From IMG/VR virus record IMGVR_UViG_3300010885_022317, positions 1-22,255 of that record: a stretch of DNA of 22,255 nucleotides. One strand, written 5' to 3'. The position numbers and the translations under genes are program-made. This stretch comes from a virus. Of the stretch, positions 5,170-21,742 are shown piece by piece (the first letter of the stretch is position 1; each line of letters starts with the position of its first letter). A model generated the notes under the pieces. The model was not told the origin of the DNA, did not search any database, and worked only from the letters and a program-made list of their open reading frames with translations.

Positions 5170-5178
5170 TATAAATAT
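5170..5178 (-). promoter_or_regulatory. ATATTTATA motif before the tube-initiator-like gene
   Basis: The coding strand reads ATATTTATA, ending 18 bases before the ATG at 5151, in the 87-base gap after the tape measure gene. That gap holds nothing else I can identify. Inferred late promoter core or leader signal. Confidence 0.45.
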
Positions 5179-5238
5179 CTTATTGTAAAAAATGTAATTA
5201 ATCAATTTGTATAAACTCAACATCTAGTTTACTATAAT

Positions 5239-8200
5239 CTACTTTGGTATTGGGCCGGTTGGTGGTGCTGGGTTTGTGGCCTGCGTTCTATCATTATATT
5301 TTACAACACTTCTACTAACACTTTTACCGTCTAATTGTAATACAACATTTGTATTTGAATCACTACTAACAAATGCATCTATTAATTTTGTAAGATTTTT
5401 ATTAACAGTTAGTAATTGTGATACAGTAGTGTCCATACTGGTTAGTTTTGTTGATGTAGTCATATTTGATATAACCAGTTTATCGGCTCTAGCAATAAGT
5501 CTTTGAGTATTTCCATTTATATCAACCAACTTACCATACAACTTATCATCTCCTACTTTTGCCTGCGCTGCTATTGCTGTACTAACTTGCGTAAGTATAC
5601 TATTTGTCAAATCCATTTTACCACCCATTATTATACCACGCGTATCCGCTTGTTGTTGTGTTAATAAGCTAGTTGCTTCAGTTGCAGGTGGTACAGCGGG
5701 TGTAGCGGGTACTGCTACAGTAGGGGCTACGCTTGTTTTGGGTGCTGCCGGCGTACCAGCCGCAGGTGCGGTAGCGGTTGTTGTAGGTGATCCAGGCGTT
5801 CCAGCTGCGGGAGCTGCAGCGGCTTGCGAAGCTTTAGTTGTAGCTGCTACCGAATTTAATTCAGTTTTTCGCATGACCGATTGGTATTCCTTATCACTTA
5901 CATTATATTGCTTTTTATAATCCGCAAGTGACATTTCTTTTCCGGCGACTTTTACCATTCCAGAAGCTTGTCCTCCGGCTTGCTTTATCATATTAGCTAT
6001 GTTTTGCTCTCTTGCATCAAGTTCGGCGCCAACGCCTAATCTCTTTGCACCAACCATTGCGGCTTTGTTGTAGTCTTGCCTTCCTACTTCTTTTAAAGTA
6101 TCCTTATCGTTTAAAGTTTTATTATAGATTCCAGGAAGTATATCAAATGCAATCGCATCTATTAATCGGGTAAGCTCTACAGTCTGCTCTAACATTGCTT
6201 GCCTCCAACTTGGTTCATCATCGGATAGTGCTGAAAATACCTTTTGGTTTTCCATGCTCTCCTTCATTGTGTTGAACATTTGGGTATTAATATCATTTAG
6301 AGTACCCTGTAGTTCAACTTGTGCATCCATTCTTACAGCATCCTCACTAAACCAATTATCATATATACCCTTTATGCCACCAACAATAGTACCGATTGAA
6401 GCTCCTACTGCTGTTCCTATTCCCGGTATAATACTACCAATCATAGCACCATATCCAGCGTATTCCAAAGTTGTTCCTACTGCGGATGCTGCTCTACCGG
6501 TTTGTAGTGCACCCATATCGCCGGTTTGCATTGCCTGTTCTTTTTTATACTCGCCATACATATCTGCCAATCCTCCAACTACACCAGTTATTAATCCAAT
6601 CGGGCCGCCACCAGCTGCTTTTGATGCAACTTTACCAAACATACTAGCTCCTAATTTAGTACCACCCTTTTGTAGTGCTTTTCCTATTGAAGTTTCTGCA
6701 ACCTTACCAATAAGTTCACTTCCTCCTTTTTTAACAGCCGTCAATCCAACTTTTTGTGCAATAGTTTTTCCTCCGGTTCCAGCTGCGGTTGTTGCTGCTT
6801 TTTTTGCAAATACTTTTGATCCAATGTGTTCTACCTTTTCAATTGCCTTTTCCTCCGCAATATGTACAACTTTATCTTTCAATCCATTAAGCCCAGAGGA
6901 TAACATAGCTGCCTTTAATCCTGCTTCATTTTCAGCTGAAAATTGCTCCGATGTGTGTATTTGTTGTTTTAATAAATCCGATTGTCCTTTAAGTGTTGAT
7001 ACAACATTACCAATACAAGAACATATATCATTACTTGCAATTACTCCACCCGGTGCAACTTGCTCTCCTGGTGTTACTGCCGCAGCGGCAGGTGGTGTTA
7101 TTGTTGATGGTTTTACTTCATCCTTCGTAGGCTCTTCTTTACCTCCAAATAATTTACTAACTCCCCAAGCCGTTACAGCTGCAATCGCTGTACCAATAAG
7201 CATTTTCTTAATATTTCCACCTTTTGATTTAGTGGATCGTGTTGATGGTGTAGATGGTGCTGATGGTGCTGATGGTGCTGATGGTGCTGATGGTGTTCCT
7301 GTTATTTTTTGTCCAAGTTTAGTTTTTTCTAGTCTGGTTTTAAGTAACCCAGATAATACAGAAGCACCAATACCACCAACTACACCTCCAATAGTTCCTA
7401 ATATATTTTCGCTTCCAGCTTTTTCAGGTGCAAATTGTTTTGTTTCAACGGCAGCTTGTTTTACTTTGGCATTATTTTTTTCCATATTACCAACCAACAA
7501 TTCAAATTGAGCATCAAACTTATCTATGGTCATTTGCATTCGGCCGAACTCAGAATTTATTATTGCTGCAAATTTTTTCTTTTGAACATCTGTTTCATTT
7601 TGTTGTTCTGCTATTTGTTGATTTATTGCAGCTATTCTTAATTTAGCTGTTGCCGGATCATTTAGATATTTTTCCATTGCAGCTTGAGAGGTGGATGCAT
7701 CTATTATGGCTTGTGCTGCTGAAATGTTTGCCGTTTGTGATGCTAATGTTTGTTCAGCTGCTTGCTTTGTATTTAAGAATTTTTGATTACCTCCCTTTGC
7801 GTTTCCTGCTTGAAGTCCACCAACAGCTGCTCCAGTATTTTGAGCTATTTTTGATATTGAACTTAAATCCATTCCACCAAGTGCTTGTTGTAGTGCGTCT
7901 TGTTGGAACTGATCCATATCTTTAGGATCCAATCCTTGTGATTTCAAAGCCTTCATTGCGCCTTCCGTATCTCCGGATGCGAACTTTTCTCTTACTTCGG
8001 AAAGGTCAACTTGCTTACCTAAAAGTGAACTTAATTGCATTTCAGCTTTGATACTATCCTTATAGTTTAGTACCATATTCTTTCCGGCTTTGGCTATATC
8101 ACCAAATCCTACACCTAATGATTTGGCATATGCTACTTGCTTTGCTAATGCTGGTCCGCTTTTAATTTGATATGAAAGAGCATCTTTTGATGCCTCTGCT

Positions 8201-9909
8201 ACTTCTTGCATTAAACTTCCGAGAGATATACCGGCGTTATCGGCCATTGCTCTCATACCTTCTTGCATATTCATAGCGACATCTGCGCTGACTTTATCGG
8301 TTCTTTGGAAATATTCATTTATTGCAGCAATACTATCAACCGATTGTCCGGTTCGTTCTGCCATTACTGCCATATCGGAAGCGGCTTTTGCGGTTGGCAT
8401 TTTACCGGTTGCATCTGCTGCTGCTGTCATAGCCGATGCTACTTTTTCAGCTCCTATTCCTGCTAATTGCATTTGTGCCGCACTATATCCAACACTACCT
8501 ATACCTTTCCCAAATAGTGCAGTTTTTGATGCAGCTGCGAATTGCACGGCTCCTGTTTTTAATTGTGCTGAAAATGCGTTTGCTGCACGTTGTGAGGCAA
8601 ATGCAGCTTCGGCACGTAATTTTACAATACTATCTTCCGTGTCAATTCGACTTTTACTTACTTCTAATCCTATTTTTGTTTCTACATTACCAATATCTAC
8701 AACAGATTCCTTCTTCCGTTTGTATTGTTCAGCATCCAATCTCAGGTTCTCTTTGGCCGCATAGACATCCCTTACGTATTGAAAGTTATTTTCTTTTGCC
8801 GTTTTTCTAACCTCACCAGCTCCTCCACGATTTCCTACGAGCTGATCTTCAATTTTTGCCGTACCATATTTGGATTCAAAATCAACCTCAATCTTTCCTA
8901 ATTTTTGTAAATACTGAATTTGATTTTCAATCTTTTCATTTCTAAACTCAATATCTACTTGCAAAGGTGCAGCAAAATAATCAGTAGCTATTTTACCTAG
9001 TGCTGCGCCTAATGCTATTATTGCTATTTTTGCACCAGGTATATCTCCTGATTTCATTTTTTTGAATACGCTAGCTAATTCATTTATTGCTGGAAGGCCA
9101 CTACTACCTAGTTGATCCATAGCTGAATTGAATCCATCTAAACTCTTTTTTGATTTATCAGCTGCTTTTTTAAATTCACCAACTTCTGTTACAGCAGATG
9201 CAAAAACTTTTTTTAATTCTTTTCCAGATTCTGTTGAATCATCTATTCTATCAGTAAGCTCTTCAAAATTTTCATAAGCTTTGGTAACTAAGTCATTATA
9301 TTCTTCTTGAGTAGCAGTTCCCCTTTGTAATCGCTTTTGTGCATTAGCTATTTCCGATGTCATTCCAGAATACGCCTTAGCTGCCGATACTGCTATTTCC
9401 GTTTGTGCTTGCGTTAAATCTGATGAATTTTGTATAATAGTAGAAATTCCACCTAATGTTTTTTTGGTAGTATCAATTTTATCTTGTAGTTTTTCGTAAA
9501 CACCAGGCAATTTACCAATTCCATTAGAAAAACTTACCAATGATGAGTCTAAATCATCAAAATCTTCAATACTTTCTTTTATTCTTTTATTGAAAATACT
9601 TACCTTCTCACTTAATGTATTATAACGATTTCCTACTGATGTTATTTTTTTATCAAGTTTATCAGTACTCGTATATTCATCTTCTAATGCCTTTAATCTT
9701 TCATCATCATACTTTTGTCCACTTTGTTTCTTTTGGGCAAGTTTCTCCCATTCTTTTGATATTTTTTGCAAAAGAGCCCATTCTTTATCAAGTTCGACTA
9801 GTTTTTGTTTTTGAAGCAATATCTCATCCGCCTTTTGTTTAGCTGTTACTTTGCTATCAAAAAGTCCACTTGCTTTATTTCCTCCGGTGTTTGTGAGTTT
9901 TTTTGCCAT
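5239..9909 (-). CDS. Tail tape measure protein
   Basis: At 1556 residues this is the largest gene in the window and lies just after the chaperone-like genes, the usual place of a tape measure protein. That protein sets tail length and occupies the tube lumen. Residues 20-270 are charged, heptad-rich and probably coiled coil. Hydrophobic glycine/alanine-rich segments lie near 290-312, 838-860, 901-921 and 1100-1190; the last (GSIIPGIGTAVGASIGTIVG) looks able to insert into membrane. A tandem PSA repeat lies at about 871-891 and a Pro/Ala/Thr-rich linker at about 1360-1410. I see no lysozyme or peptidase motif. Family identity rests on size, composition and order, because these proteins diverge quickly. 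T4 gp29 is only about 590 residues. Confidence 0.88.
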   Translation of the reverse strand: MAKKLTNTGGNKASGLFDSKVTAKQKADEILLQKQKLVELDKEWALLQKISKEWEKLAQKKQSGQKYDDERLKALEDEYTSTDKLDKKITSVGNRYNTLSEKVSIFNKRIKESIEDFDDLDSSLVSFSNGIGKLPGVYEKLQDKIDTTKKTLGGISTIIQNSSDLTQAQTEIAVSAAKAYSGMTSEIANAQKRLQRGTATQEEYNDLVTKAYENFEELTDRIDDSTESGKELKKVFASAVTEVGEFKKAADKSKKSLDGFNSAMDQLGSSGLPAINELASVFKKMKSGDIPGAKIAIIALGAALGKIATDYFAAPLQVDIEFRNEKIENQIQYLQKLGKIEVDFESKYGTAKIEDQLVGNRGGAGEVRKTAKENNFQYVRDVYAAKENLRLDAEQYKRKKESVVDIGNVETKIGLEVSKSRIDTEDSIVKLRAEAAFASQRAANAFSAQLKTGAVQFAAASKTALFGKGIGSVGYSAAQMQLAGIGAEKVASAMTAAADATGKMPTAKAASDMAVMAERTGQSVDSIAAINEYFQRTDKVSADVAMNMQEGMRAMADNAGISLGSLMQEVAEASKDALSYQIKSGPALAKQVAYAKSLGVGFGDIAKAGKNMVLNYKDSIKAEMQLSSLLGKQVDLSEVREKFASGDTEGAMKALKSQGLDPKDMDQFQQDALQQALGGMDLSSISKIAQNTGAAVGGLQAGNAKGGNQKFLNTKQAAEQTLASQTANISAAQAIIDASTSQAAMEKYLNDPATAKLRIAAINQQIAEQQNETDVQKKKFAAIINSEFGRMQMTIDKFDAQFELLVGNMEKNNAKVKQAAVETKQFAPEKAGSENILGTIGGVVGGIGASVLSGLLKTRLEKTKLGQKITGTPSAPSAPSAPSAPSTPSTRSTKSKGGNIKKMLIGTAIAAVTAWGVSKLFGGKEEPTKDEVKPSTITPPAAAAVTPGEQVAPGGVIASNDICSCIGNVVSTLKGQSDLLKQQIHTSEQFSAENEAGLKAAMLSSGLNGLKDKVVHIAEEKAIEKVEHIGSKVFAKKAATTAAGTGGKTIAQKVGLTAVKKGGSELIGKVAETSIGKALQKGGTKLGASMFGKVASKAAGGGPIGLITGVVGGLADMYGEYKKEQAMQTGDMGALQTGRAASAVGTTLEYAGYGAMIGSIIPGIGTAVGASIGTIVGGIKGIYDNWFSEDAVRMDAQVELQGTLNDINTQMFNTMKESMENQKVFSALSDDEPSWRQAMLEQTVELTRLIDAIAFDILPGIYNKTLNDKDTLKEVGRQDYNKAAMVGAKRLGVGAELDAREQNIANMIKQAGGQASGMVKVAGKEMSLADYKKQYNVSDKEYQSVMRKTELNSVAATTKASQAAAAPAAGTPGSPTTTATAPAAGTPAAPKTSVAPTVAVPATPAVPPATEATSLLTQQQADTRGIIMGGKMDLTNSILTQVSTAIAAQAKVGDDKLYGKLVDINGNTQRLIARADKLVISNMTTSTKLTSMDTTVSQLLTVNKNLTKLIDAFVSSDSNTNVVLQLDGKSVSRSVVKYNDRTQATNPAPPTGPIPK
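7235..7297 (-). repeat. 9-base tandem repeat inside the tape measure gene
   Basis: Seven consecutive 9-base units lie here; on the plus strand the unit is GATGGTGCT. The four units from 7253 to 7288 are identical and the flanking ones differ by one to three bases. The frame is kept, giving three-residue steps PSA/PST/PSR in a linker between two glycine-rich hydrophobic segments. Unit number could vary by slippage without breaking the frame. Confidence 0.9.
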
Positions 9910-9937
9910 TTATTAGTACAATTTGATGGGATGTTTG

Positions 9938-10195
9938 TTAACTGTATGTTTTATCTATTGTATTTTGGATTTCCGCGGCTTTTTTCTTATCTCCTATCTT
10001 TTCATAATATTTTTTAACGGTCATAAGAAGATCGTCAGATGAAGTATTCCATTTTTCCCAAGCATCTGCCAAATTTTTATCATACTTTCGTATTGTTTCA
10101 ATAGCCTTATCTTGCTTGCCTTGAGATTTAGCTTTAAAAAAACTTTGAACAAAGTCAATAAAGCCAGCCTCTTTTACTAATATTTTTTTGCGCAT
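9938..10195 (-). CDS. Small helical protein of unknown function before the tape measure
   Basis: I choose the ATG at 10195 (MRKKILVKEAGF), giving 85 residues. An earlier in-frame ATG at 10231 would place the start inside a palindrome that also holds an ATATTTATA motif, so the downstream start is preferred. The protein is predicted to be almost all helix and charged (FVQSFFKAKSQGKQDKAIE, then DKNLADAWEKW, then LMTVKKYYEKIGDKKKAAEI). It has no membrane segment. It lies between the tail-chaperone-like ORFs and the tape measure gene, with 28 bases to the latter. A tail-assembly helper or minor virion protein is possible; I do not recognise a named family. Confidence 0.75.
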   Translation of the reverse strand: MRKKILVKEAGFIDFVQSFFKAKSQGKQDKAIETIRKYDKNLADAWEKWNTSSDDLLMTVKKYYEKIGDKKKAAEIQNTIDKTYS

Positions 10196-10208
10196 ACTTT
10201 TAGTATTA

Positions 10209-10230
10209 TGTTTATATATAAATATAAACA
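10209..10230. repeat. AT-only inverted repeat overlapping a start-site motif
   Basis: A perfect 9-base stem (TGTTTATAT with ATATAAACA) surrounds a 4-base loop. It spans the ATATTTATA motif before the gene starting at 10195 and lies directly after the stop of the preceding ORF. It lacks the GC stem and T-run of a normal terminator. It may be an operator-like site, an RNA processing hairpin, or chance in AT-rich DNA. Confidence 0.6.
10217..10225 (-). promoter_or_regulatory. ATATTTATA motif before the small helical protein gene
   Basis: The coding strand reads ATATTTATA, ending 21 bases before the ATG at 10195. Here the motif is embedded in a perfect 9-base inverted repeat (10209-10230). Inferred late promoter core or leader signal. 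Confidence 0.45.
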
Positions 10231-10238
10231 TTATTTAA

Positions 10239-10409
10239 TTATCTACGTCTTACTTTGGATGTGTTTGATGTGGATGTTTTTGCCTTTTCTATTGTGGCTT
10301 TTTCTTCCTCTTTTGTTTTAAGTAATTCTCTCCAATAAAATTCTCTTAATTTAATAGGCATATAGTAGAGATCATTCCAATTAAATCCACCATTTGCAAA
10401 GTAAATCAT
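10239..10409 (-). CDS. Putative tail assembly chaperone, second component
   Basis: The frame is open from 10526, but its first part overlaps the end of the gp26-like gene. The most natural independent start is the ATG at 10409, giving 56 residues. The core reads FNWNDLYYMPIKLREFYWR and is followed by a lysine/glutamate-rich tail ending in KVRRR. Short proteins of the W.dlY.MP..lR.fY type are common next to gp26-family genes in T4-like phages and are thought to act in tail assembly; I know the pattern but not an exact homologue. The frame extends upstream without a stop through LHGKIFQMIYF, which reads like part of the same fold. It may therefore also be made by frameshifting from the gp26-like gene (see 10458-10464). 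The position before the tape measure gene matches lambda T of the G/GT pair. Confidence 0.6.
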   Translation of the reverse strand: MIYFANGGFNWNDLYYMPIKLREFYWRELLKTKEEEKATIEKAKTSTSNTSKVRRR

Positions 10410-10443
10410 TTGGAAAATCTTACCATGTAATACTACTGAATAA

Positions 10444-11280
10444 TTAATCGGCAGGGTAAAAAAAGTCAATCCCAAAAGGAATACGAAGAGCCTCCGTTTC
10501 TCCCGTATATGGTGATGTGTACTCAAATGTAAGGTCTAAATCGGGAGTCATTGATGCTACATATTTACGAAGTGCCTTTGAATCTCCTGCTAATAGTTGA
10601 TTTGAAACATAATTTGATATTGCTCCAAACTCTCTACTACCATTTACTTCCGTAATTACTCTCCTATATCTAGCTGTTATTTCATTTCCCGTCTTAAGTG
10701 CTTTCTGACTTGCTTCAATATCTTTATTGATTAATAGTTCATCGCCATGTGTAAGTAATTTAAACTTAATTGGGGTTTTTGAAACCGGAAGTGTATAATC
10801 ATACTCATTATCTCTATTCAATAATGATTCATCAATTTCTTTTATTTGAATTTTAGATAAATCAACTACAGTTTCAACAGGTTCTTTTTCTTCTGGATCA
10901 TTAATTGTTACACTATATTCTGGTCCAAATGCTAAAATTCTACTTGTTACCAATATAGCGTTTTTATCACCTATAAGTAGGTCACTAATATTAACACCAG
11001 GCTCAACAACGATTGATTCTAACAATTTATCTAATTGAATACCTTTCTTAATCAAGTTTGCCGAAGTTAAAATATCTTCTTCTTTAGCGGTCATTAACTT
11101 AATTGTAATTTCACCACTTGCCAACGGACTATTTTCAGGATAACATAGACCTTTTGAAGGTAATGATATAACTTCAGTTGGGAATGGGAATGATTTTGGC
11201 CCTTGCGTTTTAGGCATTGTTGGATTTTGTAATCCTCTTGTAACTACTTTCTCTTTTGGAGAATCTTGCGTTTGTTCCAT
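10444..11280 (-). CDS. gp26-family (T4_baseplate) protein, probable tail assembly chaperone
   Basis: This 278-residue protein matches my memory of the T4_baseplate family (T4 gp26): a disordered Pro/Lys-rich N-terminus, then LPSKGLCYPENSPLASGEI at about 40-58. Next comes IKLMTAKEEDILTSANLIKKG at about 60-80, LDKLLESIV and LLIGDKNAILVTSRI at about 101-115. In T4 gp26 is needed for hub assembly. In phages with this gene order it takes the place of the lambda G chaperone that binds the tape measure, which is the role I infer. The second half, about 130-278, is less familiar. A terminator separates it from the tube gene upstream, and a TATTAATA box lies 38 bases before its ATG. Its last codons contain a run of seven T that could direct a frameshift into the next ORF. 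Confidence 0.75.
   Translation of the reverse strand: MEQTQDSPKEKVVTRGLQNPTMPKTQGPKSFPFPTEVISLPSKGLCYPENSPLASGEITIKLMTAKEEDILTSANLIKKGIQLDKLLESIVVEPGVNISDLLIGDKNAILVTSRILAFGPEYSVTINDPEEKEPVETVVDLSKIQIKEIDESLLNRDNEYDYTLPVSKTPIKFKLLTHGDELLINKDIEASQKALKTGNEITARYRRVITEVNGSREFGAISNYVSNQLLAGDSKALRKYVASMTPDLDLTFEYTSPYTGETEALRIPFGIDFFYPAD
10458..10464 (-). other. Candidate frameshift site (seven T)
   Basis: The coding strand reads GAC-TTT-TTT-TAC five codons before the stop of the gp26-like gene. Two adjacent Phe codons plus one further T let both tRNAs re-pair perfectly after a +1 slip. Translation would then continue with ACC-CTG into the overlapping small ORF, giving a 346-residue fusion (274 + 72). 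I did not find a clear stimulatory hairpin. The site is visible; its use is hypothetical. Confidence 0.35.
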
Positions 11281-11318
11281 AAATTTAATAACTTAATGTT
11301 TAAAATAACTTTTGTCTT

Positions 11319-11326
11319 TATTAATA
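11319..11326 (-). promoter_or_regulatory. TATTAATA box before the gp26-like gene (motif variant)
   Basis: The coding strand reads TATTAATA 38 bases before the ATG at 11280, downstream of the tube terminator. It differs by one base from the TATTTATA core seen before six other genes. A new transcription unit is expected here because the message from the tube gene should end just upstream. The assignment as a promoter is inference. Confidence 0.35.
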
Positions 11327-11348
11327 TATATAATCTTTTTAAAAAAAT

Positions 11349-11381
11349 AAAAGGGACCACACCGTTAAGTGAGTCCCTTTT
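11349..11381 (-). terminator. Intrinsic terminator after the tail tube gene
   Basis: The arms AAAAGGGAC (11349-11357) and GTCCCTTTT (11373-11381) pair perfectly. Three more pairs (CAC with GTG) are possible past one bulged base, leaving an 8-base loop. On the minus strand the stem is followed by a T-rich tract (TTTTATTTTTTT). It lies 22 bases after the tube stop codons and should end most transcripts of the sheath-tube unit. Confidence 0.85.
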
Positions 11382-11403
11382 AGATATTTTATTTTTAGAA
11401 TTA

Positions 11404-11892
11404 TTAGTATTCCAAAATAGCGTAGTCGATTGATAAAGTCAATTCGATTGAAAGTGGGTCGTTACCTGCCCAATCCAACTCACCGAAGTTTGCTGAACTG
11501 ATAAATGCTCCTTTCAAAGTCCATTGCTCAATCTTATCACCCACAGGTCCCAAAAGATATATGGTAACATCTTTTTTGTAGAACGCTGCGTAACCATCTC
11601 TACCGGTGATAGATTCATGTGATGTTCTCACCCAATCCATTACCATTTGTGCTCCAGATGGAACGATAGGGTCATATAGAGTGATACTAACATCATCCCA
11701 AGTAGATTTACCCTTAACTTTTCTTTTTACGTTAATGTGGTCAAGTTCAACTACTTCCGATGTGAATGTTGGTCTTGCCGCTGTTTTAATCACATATGAT
11801 TCTATACCGTCTACTTCCATAATGTACCTATTGCTTAGCTTCGGTTCAAAATTTTTGTAGAACATTTTATCAAACTCTAATATTTCTGGCAT
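11404..11892 (-). CDS. Tail tube protein (gp19-like)
   Basis: This 162-residue protein has the size and layout of T4 gp19 (163 residues), which stacks as hexamers to form the inner tail tube. Visible features are an N-terminal FYKNFEPKLSNRYIMEVDGIES and the beta strand IKTAARPTFTSEVVELDHIN. Then come KGKSTWDDVSITLYDPIVPSG at about 78-98, VMDWVRTSHE, and a C-terminal WTLKGAFISSANFGELDWAG followed by SIELTLSIDYAILEY. The W..i.i.lyDp and kga.i....fGelDw steps are typical of the family. It follows the sheath gene with a 46-base gap holding its own ATATTTATA motif, and is followed by a strong terminator, consistent with high-level expression. It ends with two stop codons in tandem. Confidence 0.93.
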   Translation of the reverse strand: MPEILEFDKMFYKNFEPKLSNRYIMEVDGIESYVIKTAARPTFTSEVVELDHINVKRKVKGKSTWDDVSITLYDPIVPSGAQMVMDWVRTSHESITGRDGYAAFYKKDVTIYLLGPVGDKIEQWTLKGAFISSANFGELDWAGNDPLSIELTLSIDYAILEY

Positions 11893-11917
11893 TTTACTTT
11901 ATTTTAATTGTTTCTTA

Positions 11918-11926
11918 TATAAATAT
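11918..11926 (-). promoter_or_regulatory. ATATTTATA motif before the tube gene
   Basis: The coding strand reads ATATTTATA, ending 25 bases before the ATG at 11892, in the short gap between sheath and tube genes. The same 9 bases recur before five other genes. It is a possible late promoter core; this is inferred from recurrence and position only. Confidence 0.45.
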
Positions 11927-11938
11927 TGTTTTTTTAAA

Positions 11939-14545
11939 TTATCCTCCAAAAGCTGCTCCAGTCGGTAAGATATTAAAGTCAATTTTAATAAATTCCGCCG
12001 TTTTAGTAGGTTGAAGATAAATTGCACCTGCCAAAATGTTTCTGTCGATTACATCTGGAGTGTTATTTGTTTCATCCATTACAACTTTGAAAGCGTATAA
12101 ACCTTGTCTTTGTTGAATTGCTTCCAAATAAGGATTAGCGATATTCAAGAACTTATTACGCGTTGTGCCGGTATTTTGTTCAAACACTAAATATTTAGAA
12201 GTTGATGCGATATACTTTCTAACAGTCAACAACAATCTACGAACATTAATTCTATCCAATGCTGATGGTTTGTTTTGAAGTGTTTTTTGTCCCCATACTA
12301 CTATACCTTGTCCAGGGAACTGGCAGATTGGGTTAATTTTTCCTTCATATAAAGTATCTCTTTCAGCGTGCGTTAATCTATTCAATACACTAACTGCTCC
12401 AATCAATCCACCACGATTCAAACCTGCTGGTGCGAACCATTCTGCTGCTACTCTATCATTACTTGCGAAAACGCCTGGTAACAATACTGAAGGTGGAACT
12501 GAAATTAATTTGTTAGTATTAGTATCAATTGTCTTAACCCAAGGGTAGTAAGTTGCTGCGTAGTTACTATCAATTGCCTCACCTTGTGTTACAGCCTGTG
12601 AAATTGAATCACCATATGCGGTTGTGTCCATAATGTAGAATGCATCTGAACGTTCTTCAATCATATCCAAAACAGATGTTGCCACGTATGAGTGTAATCT
12701 TCTAATAACACCAGGTGTTACAACCATATTAATATCCCACTCGTCTGCGTTAGAAAGTGCGTTGATATGTTTATCATATGCTACTGATCCAGATGAAGTA
12801 GATGTAGTAAGGTCAAATCCTTGTGAGTTACCTGCTGATATATCTGCTCCTAATATAATATCCGTTGCTGGACTCATTCCGTCAAAACCTTCTTGAAATG
12901 CTAATAAGAAGTTTCTCTTAGCCACGTCAGCGGAAGTTACTGAATTAGATCCAGAAACACCAAATCCACAAGTCGTATCTAATCCAAAAGTAACATTAGA
13001 TCCTGTAACCGAACCGGTAAGGATTGCTGCTGTTACTTTTGGAACAGGACATTGGTAATATGCGTTATCCGAATTATTATCCAAATCAATACCACCATAA
13101 GTAGATGCATCAGCTGCTATATATGTTGCTGCCGGTATTAAACTTGCTGTTACGTTGTTTACATATACTGGTAACTTATAAGGTGCGTGTGCGAATGGTA
13201 CTGCTTGTACAGGAATACTATCAGGAGATAAAGATGAATCTCTAACGGTATTAACTAAACGAATGTATTTTGAATTATTAATCCAATCACCAGTTTCAGT
13301 AATTTTTCCTGAATTACTTATTGTGCGGTATCTGTCACCAATTACTCTATAAATATAATTTGCTGAATCAGGGTCAAGGTTTACACCAGAGAATGTTTCT
13401 AATATATTTTTTCTTTTGTTAGTATCAGCGTAATCTCTAACTACAACAGTAAATGAACCATAGTCACTTCCTGGAACAGTTCCTGCTCCTTTAATATTTG
13501 AAATACCAATTTTTACTTTTGTATTTGCCGGATTACCTGCTCCGATTGTTTCAAAACGGAATAAATTAACTCTTTGGCCAGAGATTAATTGAGATTGTAC
13601 ATATGGAGTCAAAGCTTCCTGGCAATCAAAGTTAAAGTCCTGGTCTTCTAATACCCAAAGTGATGCCGATGTAGTTGAACCGATACTTAATCCTGTATTT
13701 TTGAAATGAGATGCTACAAATCCACCTTTTGAACCCTTAGCGGTTGTACCAAATACTGCTTCAAGTGAGTTAGGGCTTTCTGGATCCAATGAAACTATAA
13801 ATTCATTAATACCAGCTCCACCAAGTTCAGAACCACTTATCGTAAATGCACCAGCACCATATTGTGAATACATACTTGCTGTTGTTATACGATGTCCTAA
13901 AAATCCGGTACCATCATTATCGGTATTGAATATCATTACCAATGGTTTTGCAGATGAACTAAACTCTCCAGTAAAACTAGCGGTTACAGATCCAGTTCCA
14001 GCTGCTAATTGAGCGGCAGATGCTGATAAGTATATACCCGTTGGTACTGTTCTCAATCCACTTCCTGGGGTAATGTATGTAATTCCGGTAATTGTACCAT
14101 TAACTATACTAGCTGATAATGTTGGTCTAACATCAAAATCACCACCAACTAATGATGCTGATACGTTTCCTGTTGTAGTACCATTACTTGCTGTGAAGTT
14201 TGTACCACCACTTACTATTGTATATCCTGTTAATTCTCCTTTTGTATATACACCAATTAACATTGGGTTTTGTTCAGTATATCCACCGATACCACCTACT
14301 CTACAAATTGTAGCCGTGCCAGCTTCTCTCAAATAAGATTGAACTGCTAACGGAGTATAATATGTACTATCGGGAATACCAAAAAGAGTTTGAAATTCAG
14401 ATTGTGAATTAACTATTGTTGGAACGATTGGTCCTTCTTTAAAAGGGCCGATGAATGCTGCACCAATCTCAGCTACTCCTTGTTGTAAGAAGGATAGGTC
14501 GTTTTCTTTTGTGAAGACGCCGGGTGATACTATTTTTTCTGCCAT
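11939..14545 (-). CDS. Tail sheath protein (gp18-like)
   Basis: This 868-residue protein is the contractile sheath that drives the tube into the host. The N-terminus (SPGVFTKENDLSFLQQGVAE) and IGPFKEGPIVPTIVNSQSEF at about 33-52, then FGIPDSTYYTPLAVQSYLRE, are classic sheath features. The C-terminal core from about 755 (GIVVWGQKTLQNKPSALDR, RINVRRLLLTVRKYI, FLNIANPYLEAIQQRQGLYA, ending in TAEFIKIDFNILPTGAAFGG) is also diagnostic. It is about 200 residues longer than T4 gp18 (659). The extra length includes Ser/Thr/Gly-rich beta segments at about 99-175 and in the middle that probably form surface domains. It has its own ATATTTATA motif and is followed by the tube gene without a terminator, so the two are probably co-transcribed. 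Confidence 0.95.
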   Translation of the reverse strand: MAEKIVSPGVFTKENDLSFLQQGVAEIGAAFIGPFKEGPIVPTIVNSQSEFQTLFGIPDSTYYTPLAVQSYLREAGTATICRVGGIGGYTEQNPMLIGVYTKGELTGYTIVSGGTNFTASNGTTTGNVSASLVGGDFDVRPTLSASIVNGTITGITYITPGSGLRTVPTGIYLSASAAQLAAGTGSVTASFTGEFSSSAKPLVMIFNTDNDGTGFLGHRITTASMYSQYGAGAFTISGSELGGAGINEFIVSLDPESPNSLEAVFGTTAKGSKGGFVASHFKNTGLSIGSTTSASLWVLEDQDFNFDCQEALTPYVQSQLISGQRVNLFRFETIGAGNPANTKVKIGISNIKGAGTVPGSDYGSFTVVVRDYADTNKRKNILETFSGVNLDPDSANYIYRVIGDRYRTISNSGKITETGDWINNSKYIRLVNTVRDSSLSPDSIPVQAVPFAHAPYKLPVYVNNVTASLIPAATYIAADASTYGGIDLDNNSDNAYYQCPVPKVTAAILTGSVTGSNVTFGLDTTCGFGVSGSNSVTSADVAKRNFLLAFQEGFDGMSPATDIILGADISAGNSQGFDLTTSTSSGSVAYDKHINALSNADEWDINMVVTPGVIRRLHSYVATSVLDMIEERSDAFYIMDTTAYGDSISQAVTQGEAIDSNYAATYYPWVKTIDTNTNKLISVPPSVLLPGVFASNDRVAAEWFAPAGLNRGGLIGAVSVLNRLTHAERDTLYEGKINPICQFPGQGIVVWGQKTLQNKPSALDRINVRRLLLTVRKYIASTSKYLVFEQNTGTTRNKFLNIANPYLEAIQQRQGLYAFKVVMDETNNTPDVIDRNILAGAIYLQPTKTAEFIKIDFNILPTGAAFGG

Positions 14546-14576
14546 TGTTTATGTTTTTAAATTTTTGATTTCTGAA

Positions 14577-14585
14577 TATAAATAT
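14577..14585 (-). promoter_or_regulatory. ATATTTATA motif before the sheath gene
   Basis: The coding strand reads ATATTTATA, ending 31 bases before the ATG at 14545, in a 97-base gap after the fibre gene. A short inverted repeat (GAATAT/ATATTC) flanks it. The rest of the gap shows no GC-rich hairpin or other feature. Inferred late promoter core. Confidence 0.45.
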
Positions 14586-14642
14586 AATATTCAAAACCAA
14601 AACATTAATTATGTGGTATAATGAAATAAAATTTTTGGAATA

Positions 14643-16811
14643 TTAATTATATACTCTTATTTCTATTGGCATATTTATTATTAAACCATTCGAAAACTCA
14701 CCGCCAATTCCCGATTGGATGAGTATAGTAGATGTAGATGTAGCACGTATGCTTACTACTGCAGTACTTGTTTGAACATCATCAAAGTTGTTATTGGTAA
14801 AAGAATTATAAACTTTTCCACTTGTAAATAAATGGTTTGATGTAATAGTATGATTTCCTATAGTTCCATAAGTAAACCAAATATTCCCAATAGTATTTTC
14901 TAATATTATTGCTTTTGGAGCACCAAGATTAAATAAAAGAGTTTCACCTTGTGGATCTATACCCCAACTGTTAGGAGTTGTACCTGTTGCTACAAAAAAA
15001 GTACCAATATTATTGTTTGGGGCTCCAACATTTGTAAAATCCATTTCATCATAGTAATTATGAATTTCATAAGTACGCCCTACTGTTAATGCACCTCCTT
15101 CAATATCTCCAGTATCACTACTACCAACCTGTGTTAATAAAGCTGTAAACACTTTATAAGGTCTTGAATCGGGAGTATGTAATGCATATGATGCAGTTAT
15201 AGCATTATTAGCCCAACTAGCAGTACCTTCTAAAGATCCAGTGATACTAGGAGCGCTTAGGGACCCTGTTACTGTTACTCCGTTTGTATACCTACCGCTA
15301 CCGCTAACATTTAACCTATACCCCGTATCTGTTGAAGTACCTATTGATACGTTACCTCCACCAAAAATCCTCAGCTTTTCAGATATTGCAGTACCGCCAG
15401 TTTGTGTTAAAAACAATAAATCACCTGCTTCGGAGCCAGGAGTATTGTTTGTAGCTGATATTTGAATTGCTGCTCGAGCTATTCTGCGGGTTCCATTTGC
15501 TGCTGTAAATACAAACTGATTTGTTGGATTGAATAAGTACGCAATATTTCCTGCTGTTACAGATGAGGCTGCTCCTGCATTTATGTCAAACGTAACATTA
15601 CCGTTAGCATCAGATCCGCCGTTTGTTGTTCTATACGTACCTGTACCAGTATTAACTAAAAACTGTTGTCCTGTAGCTGTACCTGTACCTATCTGAAAGG
15701 GGGTTATAATGTAGTTTCTAAAAAAAGCGTTTCCATTTACATCTAAAGTATAGGCGGGAGATTGTTGGCCTATACCCACTCTATTATTAACACCATCAAC
15801 GATAAAGGTATTGCTATCAATGTTTAAAATACCTGCACCTGATCCTAAGCTCATGGTAGCGGCATTCATTGTAATCGTATCTGTTGTAGCATCACCAAAG
15901 GTCATATTACCTGATACAATTAAATTTCCTCTTACTGTAAACGCATCTGCTGTAGATGCTGTTAATGCATTATTAGCCCAACTAGCAGTACCAAATAATG
16001 ATGCTGTTAATGCACTACTATTAATCCATTTAGTAGCAGTTGTACTGTATACTAATGGTTGTCCATTTGTTTGTCCTGATATTTGTACATCAGTTAAACC
16101 AGCTAGAGTGGTTGCACCACCACCTCCTCCATTCATAGCATAGGATGCTGTTAGAGCATATGATGCACTTAAAGCAGGATTTGTTGATGTAAATATAGAG
16201 CCAGTAACGTATGATGCTGTAGTGGCTGTTCCTTGTAAGGATCCTGTTATACCTTGAGTTACGTTTAATGATCCTGTTATTGTAGCGGAACCTGTTATTA
16301 TTAATGAACCTGTTATAGTTTGATTTGAATTAAATGAATTTGATCCTGTTGTAACAAATGATCCTGTTTGTGAATTAGTTACAAAACTACTTGTTGCTGA
16401 GTTCAGTACATAACTTGGAGCATAACTAGCTGTTACTGAGTTTGTAGCCCAACTAGCAGTTCCTTGTAATGAACCTGTAAAACCTAATGTTGATATAGTT
16501 GATCCTGTTACTGTTAAACTACCAGTAATAACCGCACTGCCGCTAAATGGAAAACCATTACCAGTTCCGCCTCCACCGCCATTAGCTGCATATAAAGCAT
16601 ATGATGCAGTCAGAGCATATGATGCACTTACCGCATTATCCACACTACCACCCGCTCCGGTTGAAGTTATTTCTACAACAGATGTGTCCGATTGGGGAAT
16701 TGTTACATTTGTGGTAGTTCCATTATCCGTTATAGTAACTATTCTATCATCGGTAGTTACTGATACCGTATTTGAATCACTTGTAATTATATTTAATGAG
16801 ATATCTGCCAT
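14643..16811 (-). CDS. Repetitive fibre protein
   Basis: This 722-residue protein is Ser/Thr/Ala/Gly-rich and has no Cys-rich or membrane regions. The N-terminus, about 1-52, is a valine/threonine beta repeat (DDRIVTITDNGTTTNVTIPQ) likely to anchor it. From about 56 to 300 come repeated units of two kinds, ASYAL(TASYAL) and GSLxGTASWAxNxxTASYA, with two glycine runs. A VGIGQQSPAYTLDVNGN element lies at about 343-359, as in many Bacteroidota phage fibres. Another GSLEGTASWANN at about 526-537 leads to a distinct non-repetitive C-terminal domain of about 170 residues, a candidate receptor-binding tip. I see no S74 intramolecular chaperone. It starts 2 bases after the 128-residue gene. By position it could be a neck or collar fibre (whisker-like) rather than a baseplate fibre; this is not settled by sequence. 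Confidence 0.82.
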   Translation of the reverse strand: MADISLNIITSDSNTVSVTTDDRIVTITDNGTTTNVTIPQSDTSVVEITSTGAGGSVDNAVSASYALTASYALYAANGGGGGTGNGFPFSGSAVITGSLTVTGSTISTLGFTGSLQGTASWATNSVTASYAPSYVLNSATSSFVTNSQTGSFVTTGSNSFNSNQTITGSLIITGSATITGSLNVTQGITGSLQGTATTASYVTGSIFTSTNPALSASYALTASYAMNGGGGGATTLAGLTDVQISGQTNGQPLVYSTTATKWINSSALTASLFGTASWANNALTASTADAFTVRGNLIVSGNMTFGDATTDTITMNAATMSLGSGAGILNIDSNTFIVDGVNNRVGIGQQSPAYTLDVNGNAFFRNYIITPFQIGTGTATGQQFLVNTGTGTYRTTNGGSDANGNVTFDINAGAASSVTAGNIAYLFNPTNQFVFTAANGTRRIARAAIQISATNNTPGSEAGDLLFLTQTGGTAISEKLRIFGGGNVSIGTSTDTGYRLNVSGSGRYTNGVTVTGSLSAPSITGSLEGTASWANNAITASYALHTPDSRPYKVFTALLTQVGSSDTGDIEGGALTVGRTYEIHNYYDEMDFTNVGAPNNNIGTFFVATGTTPNSWGIDPQGETLLFNLGAPKAIILENTIGNIWFTYGTIGNHTITSNHLFTSGKVYNSFTNNNFDDVQTSTAVVSIRATSTSTILIQSGIGGEFSNGLIINMPIEIRVYN
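15211..16462 (-). repeat. Dispersed repeats in the fibre gene
   Basis: A 14-base string (plus strand GCCCAACTAGCAGT) recurs exactly at 15211-15224, 15976-15989 and 16447-16460, coding for TASWA. Looser copies of the GSLxGTA and ASYALTA units lie between and around these. The near-identical codons suggest recent duplication or recombination among fibre units. Confidence 0.8.
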
Positions 16812-16813
16812 TA

Positions 16814-17200
16814 TTATCGTGTTACTTCTCTACTTAATTTAATTGTTCCTTGTAATAATCTTGTTACAACGCTTCCGGTTTGTAACTCTATATCGTAATA
16901 CGCACTATCAAAATTTAAAGTAGAAGAACTTTCTGCGGATATATAAACTCCTATTTTGCCCAATGATGGCGAATTTGTTCCGGATGAACCACTAAAATTA
17001 AGTCCCGTTTTATCCGCATTCAATGAACTACTGATATACAAATATGATGTTTTTGTATTATCGGCATAGTCCGGTCGAATCTGCATTCTACCATTATATC
17101 CGGTTAAATTTATTGGATTACTATTTGAATCACTGTATTGTAATTCAAAATTAACAGTTGTTCCCTGCTCTATTGTAAAATTATATTTGCCAGCTGCCAT
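16814..17200 (-). CDS. Beta-rich structural protein, probable fibre partner
   Basis: This 128-residue protein begins AAGKYNFTIEQGTTVNFELQYSD and continues PINLTGYNGRMQIRPDYADN, a pattern I know from phage structural proteins and from the N-terminal domain of BppU-like baseplate proteins. The rest alternates strands and turns (KIGVYISAESSSTLNFDSAYYDIEL, shown in part) and ends LLQGTIKLSREVTR. It is a single Ig-like beta sandwich by appearance. The fibre gene starts 2 bases after it, so the two are likely translated together, and this protein may attach the fibre to the virion. An ATATTTATA motif lies 14 bases before its ATG. The exact virion location is unknown. Confidence 0.7.
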   Translation of the reverse strand: MAAGKYNFTIEQGTTVNFELQYSDSNSNPINLTGYNGRMQIRPDYADNTKTSYLYISSSLNADKTGLNFSGSSGTNSPSLGKIGVYISAESSSTLNFDSAYYDIELQTGSVVTRLLQGTIKLSREVTR

Positions 17201-17214
17201 ATTATTATTTTATC

Positions 17215-17223
17215 TATAAATAT
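17215..17223 (-). promoter_or_regulatory. ATATTTATA motif before the fibre operon
   Basis: The coding strand reads ATATTTATA, ending 14 bases before the ATG at 17200, in the 33-base gap after the gp15-like gene. It has the shortest spacer of the set. If it is a promoter core the transcript leader would be only a few bases long. Confidence 0.45.
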
Positions 17224-17233
17224 TATGTTTATG

Positions 17234-18331
17234 TTAAAGGTTTGTAAATTTTCCAGTTATAGTTATTTTATCCGACGTGAATACAGTACCTGCTGTGAAA
17301 TTTAATGTCAATATTGATGTTGTGGTTGAGTATGTGGCTGTGAAATTGGTATTTTGCGTTAATTTAATTCCATTCTTATAAACCAATACATCATAAAAAG
17401 TATCATCAATAGTCAAAGTTCTATCTACCGTTGCTGCAAGAATATATGGAACTTTTACCAAATTTATATTGGAAAATGTTATAGTATCATTTACCAATGG
17501 GTATTTATCTATACTATTATTTAGTGCTAAAAATTCCAATGAACTAGTTGTCCCCCTTACCCCATTAGTCTGGTCTTCTATTCGTTGATTGTTTGTAGTT
17601 TCGGTTTCTGTAGATACTATTATTCTTTTTAAAGTATTTTGTTTCTTTGTTGTATTTTCACCATCAAATTGTTCTGGCAGTAGATAAGCTTTTACATTTA
17701 AACTAAATTCAACACGATTAATTCTTTCAGCTCCTTCATTTACTTCATTTATAATATCATAATCCGATATACTTGTTATAAATTTAAATTTTGTTTTATC
17801 TCCCCAATATTCATCGGATGCCCAAGTTAATGATTCAACTATTTGATTTAAATTTTCTATATAATTAGTCCAACCCATACAACTATAAGTTATTTCAACA
17901 TAATCTGGCATTGTTATATTGTAAACTTCATAATGTGGCTTTTGATTTGTTAATACATTAAACCTATCATATCTATTATTTTTAGACCAGCGTGTAACAC
18001 CTTGATACGATAAATGTCGATTTGGCATAGCCATTTGTTCATTTTTAGCAACCGATGTTCTTTTTAACATCATTATTGGTAATTGTATTTTACCATGTAT
18101 ATCTCTATAAACTCCATTTCTTCTAGCACCTTCCCACCTTTCCGAATTACCATATACAACAGGTATTTTTATAGATTTGCCATTTATTTCAATTTGTGGT
18201 AAGACAACATCTTCCATATATTTCATAATAGCATAATCCACATCATACAAAGTAATGCTTTGTTTAACATCACCCTGTTCGTTTTTGCTTTGTAATACCC
18301 TATCGGATTTTTTTAAAGGATTTTCAGCCAT
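17234..18331 (-). CDS. Tail terminator/sheath stabiliser (gp15-like) with extra C-terminal domain
   Basis: T4 gp15 caps the finished tail and joins it to the neck. This 365-residue protein resembles it over about the first 230 residues: KSIKIPVVYGNSERWEGARR at about 47-66, LPIMMLKRTS, a middle strand MPDYVEITYSCMGWTNYIEN at about 143-162. It continues LNQIVESLTWASDEYWGD and NRVEFSLNVKAYLLPE near 208-223. T4 gp15 is 272 residues. Residues about 262-365 here form a separate Thr/Asn-rich beta domain (DTITFSNINL, TLTIDDTFYDVLVYKNG, then ILTLNFTAG) that I do not find in gp15. The gene follows the gp14-like gene by 4 bases and fits the order 13-14-15. Confidence 0.78.
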   Translation of the reverse strand: MAENPLKKSDRVLQSKNEQGDVKQSITLYDVDYAIMKYMEDVVLPQIEINGKSIKIPVVYGNSERWEGARRNGVYRDIHGKIQLPIMMLKRTSVAKNEQMAMPNRHLSYQGVTRWSKNNRYDRFNVLTNQKPHYEVYNITMPDYVEITYSCMGWTNYIENLNQIVESLTWASDEYWGDKTKFKFITSISDYDIINEVNEGAERINRVEFSLNVKAYLLPEQFDGENTTKKQNTLKRIIVSTETETTNNQRIEDQTNGVRGTTSSLEFLALNNSIDKYPLVNDTITFSNINLVKVPYILAATVDRTLTIDDTFYDVLVYKNGIKLTQNTNFTATYSTTTSILTLNFTAGTVFTSDKITITGKFTNL

Positions 18332-18335
18332 ATTA

Positions 18336-18791
18336 TTAATTTATTCTTTCTTCTATATTAAGATTAGATTTAGAAACCATAAATGTAGTACATACAATAC
18401 TGAAACTATACTCAGGCAATCCACCACTATATTGTACTTCAGTTGTATTATCAATTTCAAAATAGGCCCCATTAAAGAAAATAACATCACCAATTTCAGG
18501 GTATGAATTTTTTTCTTCACACATCCACCTATCCAATCGGAACTCTACATTTTGGTCGGTATCAGATCCAAATCCTTCATACCTCGCAGTTTCAGGATCT
18601 TTATTTATTAATGCATATAATTGTACTCCAGGATGCCAAGTTTTATTCAAAGCTTCCCCATATAGATTAATTTTTGTATCATTTAAGTTTATTTTAAATA
18701 ATACAATAGCATTTTGAACAACTTCATCTACGAGTTCTCGTGCAATACCTTTAAAAAATGATACATCTCTGTCTGATATAAATTTTGGCAT
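18336..18791 (-). CDS. Neck protein (gp14-like)
   Basis: This 151-residue protein lies between the gp13-like and gp15-like genes, as gene 14 does in T4. It has an N-terminal helix (DRDVSFFKGIARELVDEVVQ) and YGEALNKTWHPGVQLYALIN at about 44-63. The pattern PEIGDVIFFNGAYFEIDNTTEV at about 97-118 parallels the PKEGDLIYFPMDNSLFEIN part of T4 gp14. T4 gp14 is 256 residues, so this version lacks much of the C-terminal part. gp13 and gp14 together close the DNA-filled head and provide the tail docking surface. It starts one base after the gp13-like gene ends. Confidence 0.72.
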   Translation of the reverse strand: MPKFISDRDVSFFKGIARELVDEVVQNAIVLFKINLNDTKINLYGEALNKTWHPGVQLYALINKDPETARYEGFGSDTDQNVEFRLDRWMCEEKNSYPEIGDVIFFNGAYFEIDNTTEVQYSGGLPEYSFSIVCTTFMVSKSNLNIEERIN

Positions 18792-18792
18792 A

Positions 18793-19965
18793 TTATCCTA
18801 CATATATTTGTAATGGAATTTTTCTTAACATTTCTTGATGATAATCAGCTTCATTCTTTCTGATTTCAAATTGAGTTTTTCTACCTAACTCTTCCAAATT
18901 TTCTCGTAATTGTGTAATAAGAGCATCCTTTTCAACTTGCGCTTCCGCTCTCAATGATGCCCCATCTAAACTGACTTCTCCATCTGGAATTGGTATAGTA
19001 TTATATTTTTCTCTGATTGCTCCCAATAATTCTTTAGCCAATGCTAATGTATATTTTCTTATCCACTGCTTACCAACATCATTTATATTTGAATATTGTA
19101 TAAAATCGTATTTAATATCCGAATAATCAGATACTACATTTGATTTTACCTGTGCTGAATTATTTTCAAAATCAGTTCTATCAAAATAATCAAAATAAAT
19201 CTTTCTTATTGGTGTGTACTTTGATGGTACTGGAAATATTGTTAATTTATTATTTACAATATTAAATGTAAATGCGGATTTACGAATTGTATCATTAAAT
19301 TCAATTTGCTGCATTCTTAATACATCCTCATATAAAGGCATCATTAGAAATTGTGCAGCAGGTGAATAGTTACCAAATCCTAACTCACTAATCAAATTCA
19401 ATGTACCCTGCGCACCAACTGAATACGGGTCAAAGAAACGAGTAATAGCTGGTGTGGCTTCATAGTAAACTTTAACAATATCTCTAACCTTATCGGAGTC
19501 TAATAGTAGGCCTGTTCCGGCTTCAAATGCTTGCGTTGTTAAATCATATACTTGTACACTTGAACTCAATTCTATATAGGCCTTTTTTATATCGGTTGGT
19601 CCACCTACACCGGCCAATGTACCATATGCTTGCGACATACGAAATAATACGGGCAAATTTCCACCATCAACTAATTTTTGACTATAATTAGTTCCGGCTT
19701 TTTTACCTTTAAGGGTATCTAAATTATTTCGGATATTGAATTGATTAACTTGTGCTGAATATTCCGATGTTGCTTCTTCAAAGCAAGCATAGAATTGTTC
19801 ATCTATTAATTCAACATCAATAATAGGATATCCTAATCTTTTTGCACACCATACGGCTGTTCTTGGTCCATCATTTTGAAAGTCAGAATCAGTATCATAT
19901 AGTGAGAATGGGGTTTTGCCTGATATGGTTGACCCACTTCCTGGCCATTTTAAATTTAAAGACAT
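18793..19965 (-). CDS. Neck protein (gp13-like)
   Basis: This 390-residue protein is probably the head-completion protein that sits on the portal. Features are AVWCAKRLGYPIIDVELIDE at about 37-56 followed by QFYACFEEATSEYSAQVNQF, the N-terminal helix pattern of gp13-type proteins. Near the C-terminus WIRKYTLALAKELLGAIREK at about 307-326, then PDGEVSLDGASLRAEAQVEK and a long helix (QLRENLEELGRKT), are also typical. T4 gp13 is 309 residues. It is the first gene after the capsid terminator and has its own ATATTTATA motif, so it likely starts the neck transcription unit of three closely packed genes. Confidence 0.78.
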   Translation of the reverse strand: MSLNLKWPGSGSTISGKTPFSLYDTDSDFQNDGPRTAVWCAKRLGYPIIDVELIDEQFYACFEEATSEYSAQVNQFNIRNNLDTLKGKKAGTNYSQKLVDGGNLPVLFRMSQAYGTLAGVGGPTDIKKAYIELSSSVQVYDLTTQAFEAGTGLLLDSDKVRDIVKVYYEATPAITRFFDPYSVGAQGTLNLISELGFGNYSPAAQFLMMPLYEDVLRMQQIEFNDTIRKSAFTFNIVNNKLTIFPVPSKYTPIRKIYFDYFDRTDFENNSAQVKSNVVSDYSDIKYDFIQYSNINDVGKQWIRKYTLALAKELLGAIREKYNTIPIPDGEVSLDGASLRAEAQVEKDALITQLRENLEELGRKTQFEIRKNEADYHQEMLRKIPLQIYVG

Positions 19966-19990
19966 AGTTTGAGAATTATAGTTATTCTAC

Positions 19991-19999
19991 TATAAATAT
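19991..19999 (-). promoter_or_regulatory. ATATTTATA motif before the neck operon
   Basis: The coding strand reads ATATTTATA, ending 25 bases before the ATG at 19965 and about 30 bases after the capsid terminator. The terminator just upstream makes a new start of transcription necessary here, which is the best contextual support for the motif being a promoter core. Confidence 0.55.
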
Positions 20000-20035: not shown

Positions 20036-20055
20036 GGGAAGAATTTCTTCTTCCC
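20036..20055 (-). terminator. Intrinsic terminator after the major capsid gene
   Basis: An 8-base perfect stem (GGGAAGAA with TTCTTCCC) has a 4-base loop and is followed on the minus strand by six T (positions 20035-20030). It lies 28 bases after the capsid stop codon. It is a textbook intrinsic terminator and should separate capsid transcription from the neck genes. Confidence 0.9.
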
Positions 20056-21734: not shown

Positions 21735-21742
21735 TATTAATA
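21735..21742 (-). promoter_or_regulatory. TATTAATA box before the capsid gene (motif variant)
   Basis: The coding strand reads TATTAATA 22 bases before the ATG at 21712, overlapping the stop codon of the scaffold gene. It matches the box before the gp26-like gene and differs by one base from the common core. A separate capsid promoter would suit the high copy number needed; this is inference. Confidence 0.35.

Follow-up and report, generated by a model that had tools for sequence, protein, structure and literature searches.

The late promoters of phage T4 carry the octamer TATAAATA. A cyanophage paper gives the T4-type late box as TATAAAT in its accessible portion (PMC3037559), and the available excerpts of two further papers state that the -35 region of T4 late promoters is not conserved (PMC2988020) and that T4 late transcription is activated by gp33 together with the gp45 clamp (PMC2988020, PMC7892883). 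According to the same excerpt, late promoters vary between phages: Aeromonas phage Aeh1 has a/gC at -13/-12, and those of KVP40, 44RR and S-PM2 are highly similar to those of T4 (PMC2988020). Jumbo phages of the gp23 type encode sigma factors and a gp33 orthologue, and the consulted part of the paper that describes them does not mention the box discussed below (PMC7824862). Here we analyse a 9-base element, ATATTTATA, in a fragment of a phage genome (IMG/VR record IMGVR_UViG_3300010885_022317, positions 1-22,255; hereafter the window, i.e. the whole stretch of 22,255 nt). We consider it quite likely that ATATTTATA is a T4-type late promoter element, with TATTTATA in place of TATAAATA, read by a divergent gp55-like sigma factor. 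None of the papers listed by an open-access literature search dealt with the element or its reader, and the first-pass annotation of this DNA likewise knew of no description.

PHROG profiles place the window in a myovirus of the T4 superfamily, with a gp23-like major capsid protein (MCP), tail sheath, tail tube, baseplate hub, baseplate wedge and head-tail adaptor; its long genes are almost all on the minus strand. The MCP is 51-54% identical to those of Flavobacterium phage Immuto, Microcystis phage Mel-JY01 and LR756508 (a 484-kb metagenomic phage), 40% identical to that of Rhodothermus phage RM378 and up to 85% identical to those of uncultured relatives. The exact 9-mer occurs eight times in the window, always on the minus (coding) strand and never on the plus strand; dinucleotide shuffles of the window yielded a mean of 1.79 copies and at most 6. 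Six of the eight copies are separated by 14-31 nt from a start codon downstream, and positions with a spacer of 0-40 nt make up 3.0% of the strand (binomial p = 1.9e-8). Among the 16 leaders used (one of the 17 starts, too near the window end, was omitted), six hold the element; the maximum in 5000 dinucleotide shuffles of the same leaders was three, reached in 3 shuffles. The first-pass annotation had listed the six copies with their spacers and had found by eye two others in that orientation, inside genes. The full count agrees exactly, with 10195 taken as the start of one gene whose open reading frame (ORF) opens at 10231; the copy at 10217-10225 counts as upstream on condition that translation really begins at 10195. 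In the large relative G003, an 85-aa protein whose size and context make it the probable counterpart agrees with that start, which probably places the element outside the gene (9938-10231).

Conservation was assessed in 80 MCP-bearing contigs, the best 80 of 597 candidates, and in pieces of larger contigs. The eight copies are as follows, with the fraction of distinct leaders of relatives that hold the exact 9-mer before the same gene:

19991..19999, minus strand: putative late element ATATTTATA before the head-tail adaptor gene Ad2 (gp13-like, start 19965); spacer 25 nt; predicted RNA start about 19987/19986 (g, a); relatives 48/50
17215..17223, minus strand: putative late element before gene 16814 (start 17200); spacer 14 nt; predicted RNA start 17211/17210; relatives 3/3
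14577..14585, minus strand: putative late element before the tail sheath gene (start 14545); spacer 31 nt; predicted RNA start 14573/14572; relatives 6/6
11918..11926, minus strand: putative late element before the tail tube gene (start 11892); spacer 25 nt; predicted RNA start 11914/11913; relatives 6/8, or 7/8 for the first eight bases
10217..10225, minus strand: putative late element before gene 9938-10231 (presumed start 10195, ORF opening at 10231); spacer 21 nt; predicted RNA start 10213/10212; relatives 1/1
5170..5178, minus strand: putative late element before the gene starting at 5151 (gene 3601; no PHROG or Pfam match); spacer 18 nt; predicted RNA start 5166/5165; relatives 4/5
13348..13356, minus strand: copy inside the sheath gene, probably chance; next start 1455 nt away; T at +12, without the start-site signature
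3771..3779, minus strand: copy inside gene 3601-5151, probably chance; next start 172 nt away; T at +13

No exact 9-mer was found in the relatives before genes 17234 and 18336, both of which closely trail their neighbour (0/56 distinct leaders of each), or before the MCP gene (0/53). The spacer between element and ATG ranges from 14 to 30 nt among the 48 Ad2 leaders, where several flanking positions are conserved as well because the sequences are related. The first-pass annotation had proposed counting the motif by strand and by distance to start codons in related phages, and the outcome is one-sided: within 60 nt before a start, the 1006 leaders of the 80 contigs hold 175 sense copies and no antisense copy, and of all 207 sense copies, 199 are no more than 60 nt away from a start. 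For these 199 sites the quartiles of the distance to the ATG are 21 and 26 nt and the 10th-90th percentiles 12-55 nt. In the three largest contigs the strand counts are 30:3, 38:2 and 29:5, and one strand is favoured in 13/13 records compared; such counts are not independent events, since the phages are related. Chance might be invoked for leaders that are A+T rich in a window with a GC content of 0.34, and its probability is negligible: the shuffled leaders, the 175:0 sense bias and the conservation before Ad2 exclude it for the set.

The surroundings of the element were aligned for 122 distinct near-start sites from ten records, anchored on the element, and compared with 51 distant sites. 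A purine stands at +12 in 100/122 near-start versus 23/51 distant sites (p = 2.6e-6), with C in 0/122, and at +13 in 101/122 versus 27/51 (p = 1e-4). G is maximal at +12 (29%, versus 6-16% at +10, +11 and +14 to +18), so mere A-richness is not the whole cause of the signature. C at +12 is also absent from single records (G001 0/21, G002 0/30, G003 0/21). In the window, the six pre-gene copies all have purines at +12 and +13, and each internal copy fails at one of them. Upstream of the element no column exceeds 0.3 bits (185 sites), i.e. there is no conserved -35 element. These features suggest that ATATTTATA would serve a phage of the T4 superfamily as the -10-type element of its late promoters, with transcription beginning at the purine found 12-13 nt from the first element base. 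As a T4 control, TATAAATA sites have 77% purine at index 13 (22 sites). The signature of the present clade falls at index 11-12 from the first T of TATTTATA, and the start may thus be 1-2 bases closer than in T4. A promoter in the reverse orientation was ruled out by the purine signature, which follows the element on the coding side.

The element had first been described as the reverse complement of the T4 box. This is literally true but misleading: given the downstream start signature, TATTTATA is better seen as a same-direction form of TATAAATA that differs only in the central pair, TT in this clade where the latter has AA. A changed consensus within the gp55 family is known in principle from Aeh1, where, in the excerpt cited above, the first two bases differ instead of the two central ones. 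As judged from the aligned sites, the element resembles the T4 late promoter in layout, as a short, -10-only element before virion genes with purines enriched about one helical turn downstream, but departs from the T4 consensus.

That the element sits on the coding strand of leaders, a short way before start codons, would also suit one acting in RNA, as a processing site or translation signal of late leaders. We regard this as very unlikely, because the distance to the ATG varies (before Ad2 and over the 199 sites alike) while the purine signature keeps a fixed distance, and because the element resembles the -7 box of a host-type promoter class in the same phages. The variable distance also disfavours the translation signal that the first-pass annotation had offered as one of its readings.

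Promoters of the Bacteroidetes primary sigma are characterized by a -33 TTTG/TTG box and its spacing. Their other box in Flavobacterium psychrophilum is TAnnTTTG at -12 to -5, as given in the accessible part of PMC9723704. The element might accordingly be the -7 box of a host primary sigma, which would make a phage sigma unnecessary. The sequence TATATTTA resembles this box, and the same phages bear host-type promoters that combine TATATTTA with a -33 TTTGG or GTTG. Shine-Dalgarno-like sites are rare, as in Bacteroidetes, in the leaders of the window (1/14 genes) and of G001-G003 and Immuto (3-8%), compared with 30% in Mel-JY01 and 57% in T4. In G003 alone, moreover, a -33 pattern does not distinguish the two promoter classes (1/7 host-type versus 5/25 late sites). 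Nevertheless, we find the host-sigma explanation quite improbable. The -33 pattern, defined as TTTGG, GTTG, TTTGT or TTGGT after the sites had been viewed, is carried in Immuto by 15/18 TATATTTA sites without the late box and by 3/25 late sites; in G001-G004 (large relatives with MCPs 77-84% identical to that of the window), the counts are 14/31 host-type and 14/95 late sites. The TATATTTA-only class fits the Bacteroidetes layout of -33 box and TAnnTTTG, as known from Flavobacterium, far more often than the late element, which shares the ATATTTA core but is mostly without a -33 box, ends in TTTATA instead of TTTG, lacking the final G, and runs on as TATA. Finally, ATATTTATA is shared by Mel-JY01, recorded on a cyanobacterium, with 10:0 sense to antisense copies. 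The late element thus seems, from these counts, to track the phage lineage rather than the host.

The host-type class is found in Immuto before many small genes at 61-76 kb. At about 67-74 kb of this genome (NC_055915), eleven small hypothetical genes are preceded by nearly the same host-type promoter, TATATTTAGGTATCAATAATTAAAA (GA may replace GG) and an upstream GTTG or similar sequence, in what looks like an early-gene array. Together with the rarity of Shine-Dalgarno-like sites, the Flavobacterium-like class indicates that the host of the window phage is probably a Bacteroidetes bacterium.

To return to the putative late promoter, a candidate for its sigma factor is encoded by larger relatives: a single protein of 229-256 residues in G001-G004, Immuto and Mel-JY01, annotated as 'hypothetical protein' in Immuto (gp118, record 78174-78872) and Mel-JY01 (L151:8764-9534). 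The leads to it were weak PF04542 matches (E 0.006-0.04, three relatives) and a match to the gp55 family phrog_234 (E 0.008, Immuto). RM378 matches it weakly (E 6e-5), LR756508 encodes a relative, and two IMG/VR scans returned at least 557 and at least 600 encoding stretches, 80 of which were kept from each. In hhalign, a 63-member profile of the candidate aligned over 100 columns with six gp55 proteins, beginning at the first residues of the latter (P 6.9e-5, probability 63%). Other sequence comparisons gave little: family searches with phrog_1740 (18 records), phrog_234 and PF04542 (10 records) yielded at most weak matches outside T4 and RM378, a PHROG scan of four of the proteins had a best E of 0.017, and a PDB sequence search with a six-member profile returned a single chance-like match, Rad50 (E 0.073).

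For the AlphaFold model of the candidate (mean pLDDT 78, pTM 0.46), the 15 best Foldseek matches in the PDB are sigma chains by their titles. A second structural alignment placed T4 gp55 in the open complex (7d7c_F) first of 586 chains (Z 10.2, root-mean-square deviation 4.7, 118 aligned residues), and the 50 best VIA rows are all sigma chains by title (Z 8.3-10.2). In the predicted model, the candidate therefore has a sigma region 2-like fold, as the T4 reader does. We propose that this phage-encoded sigma of about 230 residues would bring the host RNA polymerase to TATTTATA late in infection, with no need of a -35 element, its gene being carried by the larger relatives and missing from the window as a 22-kb fragment. 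The first-pass annotation had raised a phage sigma factor with a changed consensus and suggested a search for a gp55-like protein. The former is favoured by the purine signature, the variable distance to the ATG, the scarcity of -33 boxes, the bias towards virion genes described below and the gp55-like protein; the latter search succeeded in the large relatives and not in the window.

We then compared gene classes in seven records, assigned by BLAST comparison with the proteins of Immuto, T4 and the window, the virion labels resting partly on position in Immuto and T4. The element lies within 75 nt of 41/151 virion genes, 1/74 replication or metabolism genes and 84/959 unlabelled genes (pooled p = 2.7e-7). 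For Immuto by itself, three 8-mers were used that pick up host-type sites too; they precede 16/56 virion genes versus 3/44 replication and glycosylation genes (p = 0.009). In the window, PHROG assigns three of the six genes downstream of an element, those for tube, sheath and adaptor, to tail or connector families. The best PHROG match of the gene at 17200 is a family of unknown function, with weaker matches to tail-fibre assembly families; genes 3601-5151 and 9938-10231 had no match in the PHROG search, and a Pfam search of 10 window proteins gave none. The putative 'late' label of the genes without a tail or connector match is based on their place in the virion cluster.

Besides the similarity of the two promoter classes in G003 and the choice of the -33 pattern after inspection, several observations speak against a late promoter read by a phage sigma. 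The bias towards virion genes is significant in only two of the seven records taken singly, G001 (p = 0.0005) and G002 (p = 0.03), and in Immuto virion genes do not differ significantly from the other classes taken together without lysis (p = 0.13). The element is missing from 110/151 virion genes, which are presumably operon members. The candidate sigma was not found in the window, in the shorter relatives G005-G007, G010 and G013 or in 80 MCP loci, all of which are fragments. Its homology to gp55 is distant: Sigma70_r2 of Pfam is matched by 28/63 members at E <= 1, the best at 0.01, below the cut-off; none of the Foldseek matches reaches E 0.001; and other sigmas lie within 1 Z of gp55 in the structural alignment. 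LR756508 (165-215 kb) encodes a relative of the candidate, yet TATTTATA is found in 0/52 of its leaders there and no clear box is seen. In 64 more distant, Immuto-like loci, whose sigma is 57-65% identical, the exact ATATTTATA has no strand bias (16:16), and only the C-initial form is biased.

In these 64 loci it is CTATTTAT that leads, with 119 sense versus 4 antisense copies and A at +12 in 95% of 56 sites. Around the sigma gene itself ATATTTATA occurs rarely: 80 near loci have 18 sense copies and 1 antisense copy in 1327 leaders. Among the 1006 leaders of the 80-contig set, the T4 consensus octamer TATAAATA is found in 4 and A/C-TATTTATA in 175. RM378, with a distant MCP and a weak sigma relative, has TATTTAA before genes (37 sense versus 14 antisense), with A 12 nt past its first T in 93% of 28 sites, and TATTTATA in 0/148 leaders; its late box is probably T-TATTTAA (TTATTTAA), differing in the octamer tail, AA in place of TA. 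Beside its weak gp55-like relative, RM378 encodes another sigma, annotated as such (L155:28329-28928), in which region 2 and, weakly, region 4 are matched. The T4-like marine phages Melnitz-2 and SynMITS9220M01 (about 50 kb of each), both with an annotated late sigma and with homologous capsid and sheath proteins, also have a -10-like box before genes, but this is TATAAATA in the former (8:0) and ATAAATA in the latter (9:0), with TATTTATA in 0/61 and 0/55 leaders, respectively. Changes of the box thus appear to go with the phage clade, from A-TATTTATA in the near relatives to C-TATTTATA in many Immuto-like contigs. In LR756508 (165-215 kb), which has an MCP of the clade, TATTTAA or ACTTAAA forms are present. 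In LR756511 (500-550 kb, MCP 39.5%), none of four octamers was found in 78 leaders, and tblastn with the Immuto sigma gave no match.

If read correctly, ATATTTATA and its candidate sigma would provide a readable late-gene marker and a late sigma for a large clade of uncultured T4-like phages. The natural series of box changes (TATAAATA, A/C-TATTTATA and TTATTTAA) with matching candidate sigmas could allow base recognition by late sigmas to be derived, and Immuto, a cultured member growing on Flavobacterium, makes the reading testable.

The candidate differs from T4 gp55 in size (about 230 versus 185 residues) and in a conserved C-terminal part with four helices in the predicted fold (pLDDT 85). 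Taken alone, this domain reached a best Z of 5.8, sigma-4 structures scoring 5.0-5.6 amid unrelated helical or DNA-binding proteins, and a best Foldseek E of 1.1. No clamp-binding tail of the gp55 type was seen by eye in the aligned C-termini, for which no formal test was made. Unlike in T4, the gp33 and gp45 families were not found in the relatives: PF16805 and PF02916 were above the cut-off only in T4 (8 records) and phrog_223 was matched only in T4 (10 records), with one sub-threshold PF16805 match in G003 (E 0.019). One could imagine a two-domain late sigma, in which a gp55-like region 2 reads TATTTATA and a conserved C-terminal helix-turn-helix replaces gp33, uncoupling late genes from the replication clamp. 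In that case the clade would have an older version of the T4 late switch, or one parallel to it. We regard this extension as doubtful: clamp-loader genes are annotated in Mel-JY01, where a divergent clamp may therefore exist, and this lowers its odds.

Three further sites of the window concern the element or its surroundings:

11319..11326, minus strand: TATTAATA upstream of the baseplate hub gene (start 11280), perhaps a weak variant; TATTWATA at this place in 1/5 distinct leaders of relatives
21735..21742, minus strand: TATTAATA before the MCP gene (start 21712), probably chance; overlaps the end of the preceding gene; TATTWATA in 0/53 distinct leaders of relatives
20036..20055, minus strand: intrinsic-terminator-like hairpin with a T run, located past the MCP stop and ahead of the 19991 element

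Both TATTAATA sites, which the first-pass annotation had named as variants, are present, but TATTAATA is its own reverse complement and occurs at five places in the window, two of them before genes, and the relatives give it little support. These sites and the two internal copies of ATATTTATA may be due to chance. The hairpin could terminate transcription of the MCP gene just ahead of the next start. It has the longest stem (8 pairs, level with its plus-strand mirror) of 11 found, where shuffles expect 10.2, and is suggestive at most. Terminators just upstream of the element are not a general rule, an excess being seen in Immuto (5/24 versus 9/195) and Mel-JY01 (3/11 versus 1/227) and no significant one in eight other records.

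Two large proteins of the virion cluster also stand out. The product of 5239-9909 has 1556 residues and no PHROG or Pfam match, and the GC content of its gene is mostly 0.38-0.40, versus about 0.31 in the flanks. The tail sheath (11939-14545) has 868 residues, and most of the listed phage matches span only residues 450-866 or so, which makes a large insertion in this sheath probable.

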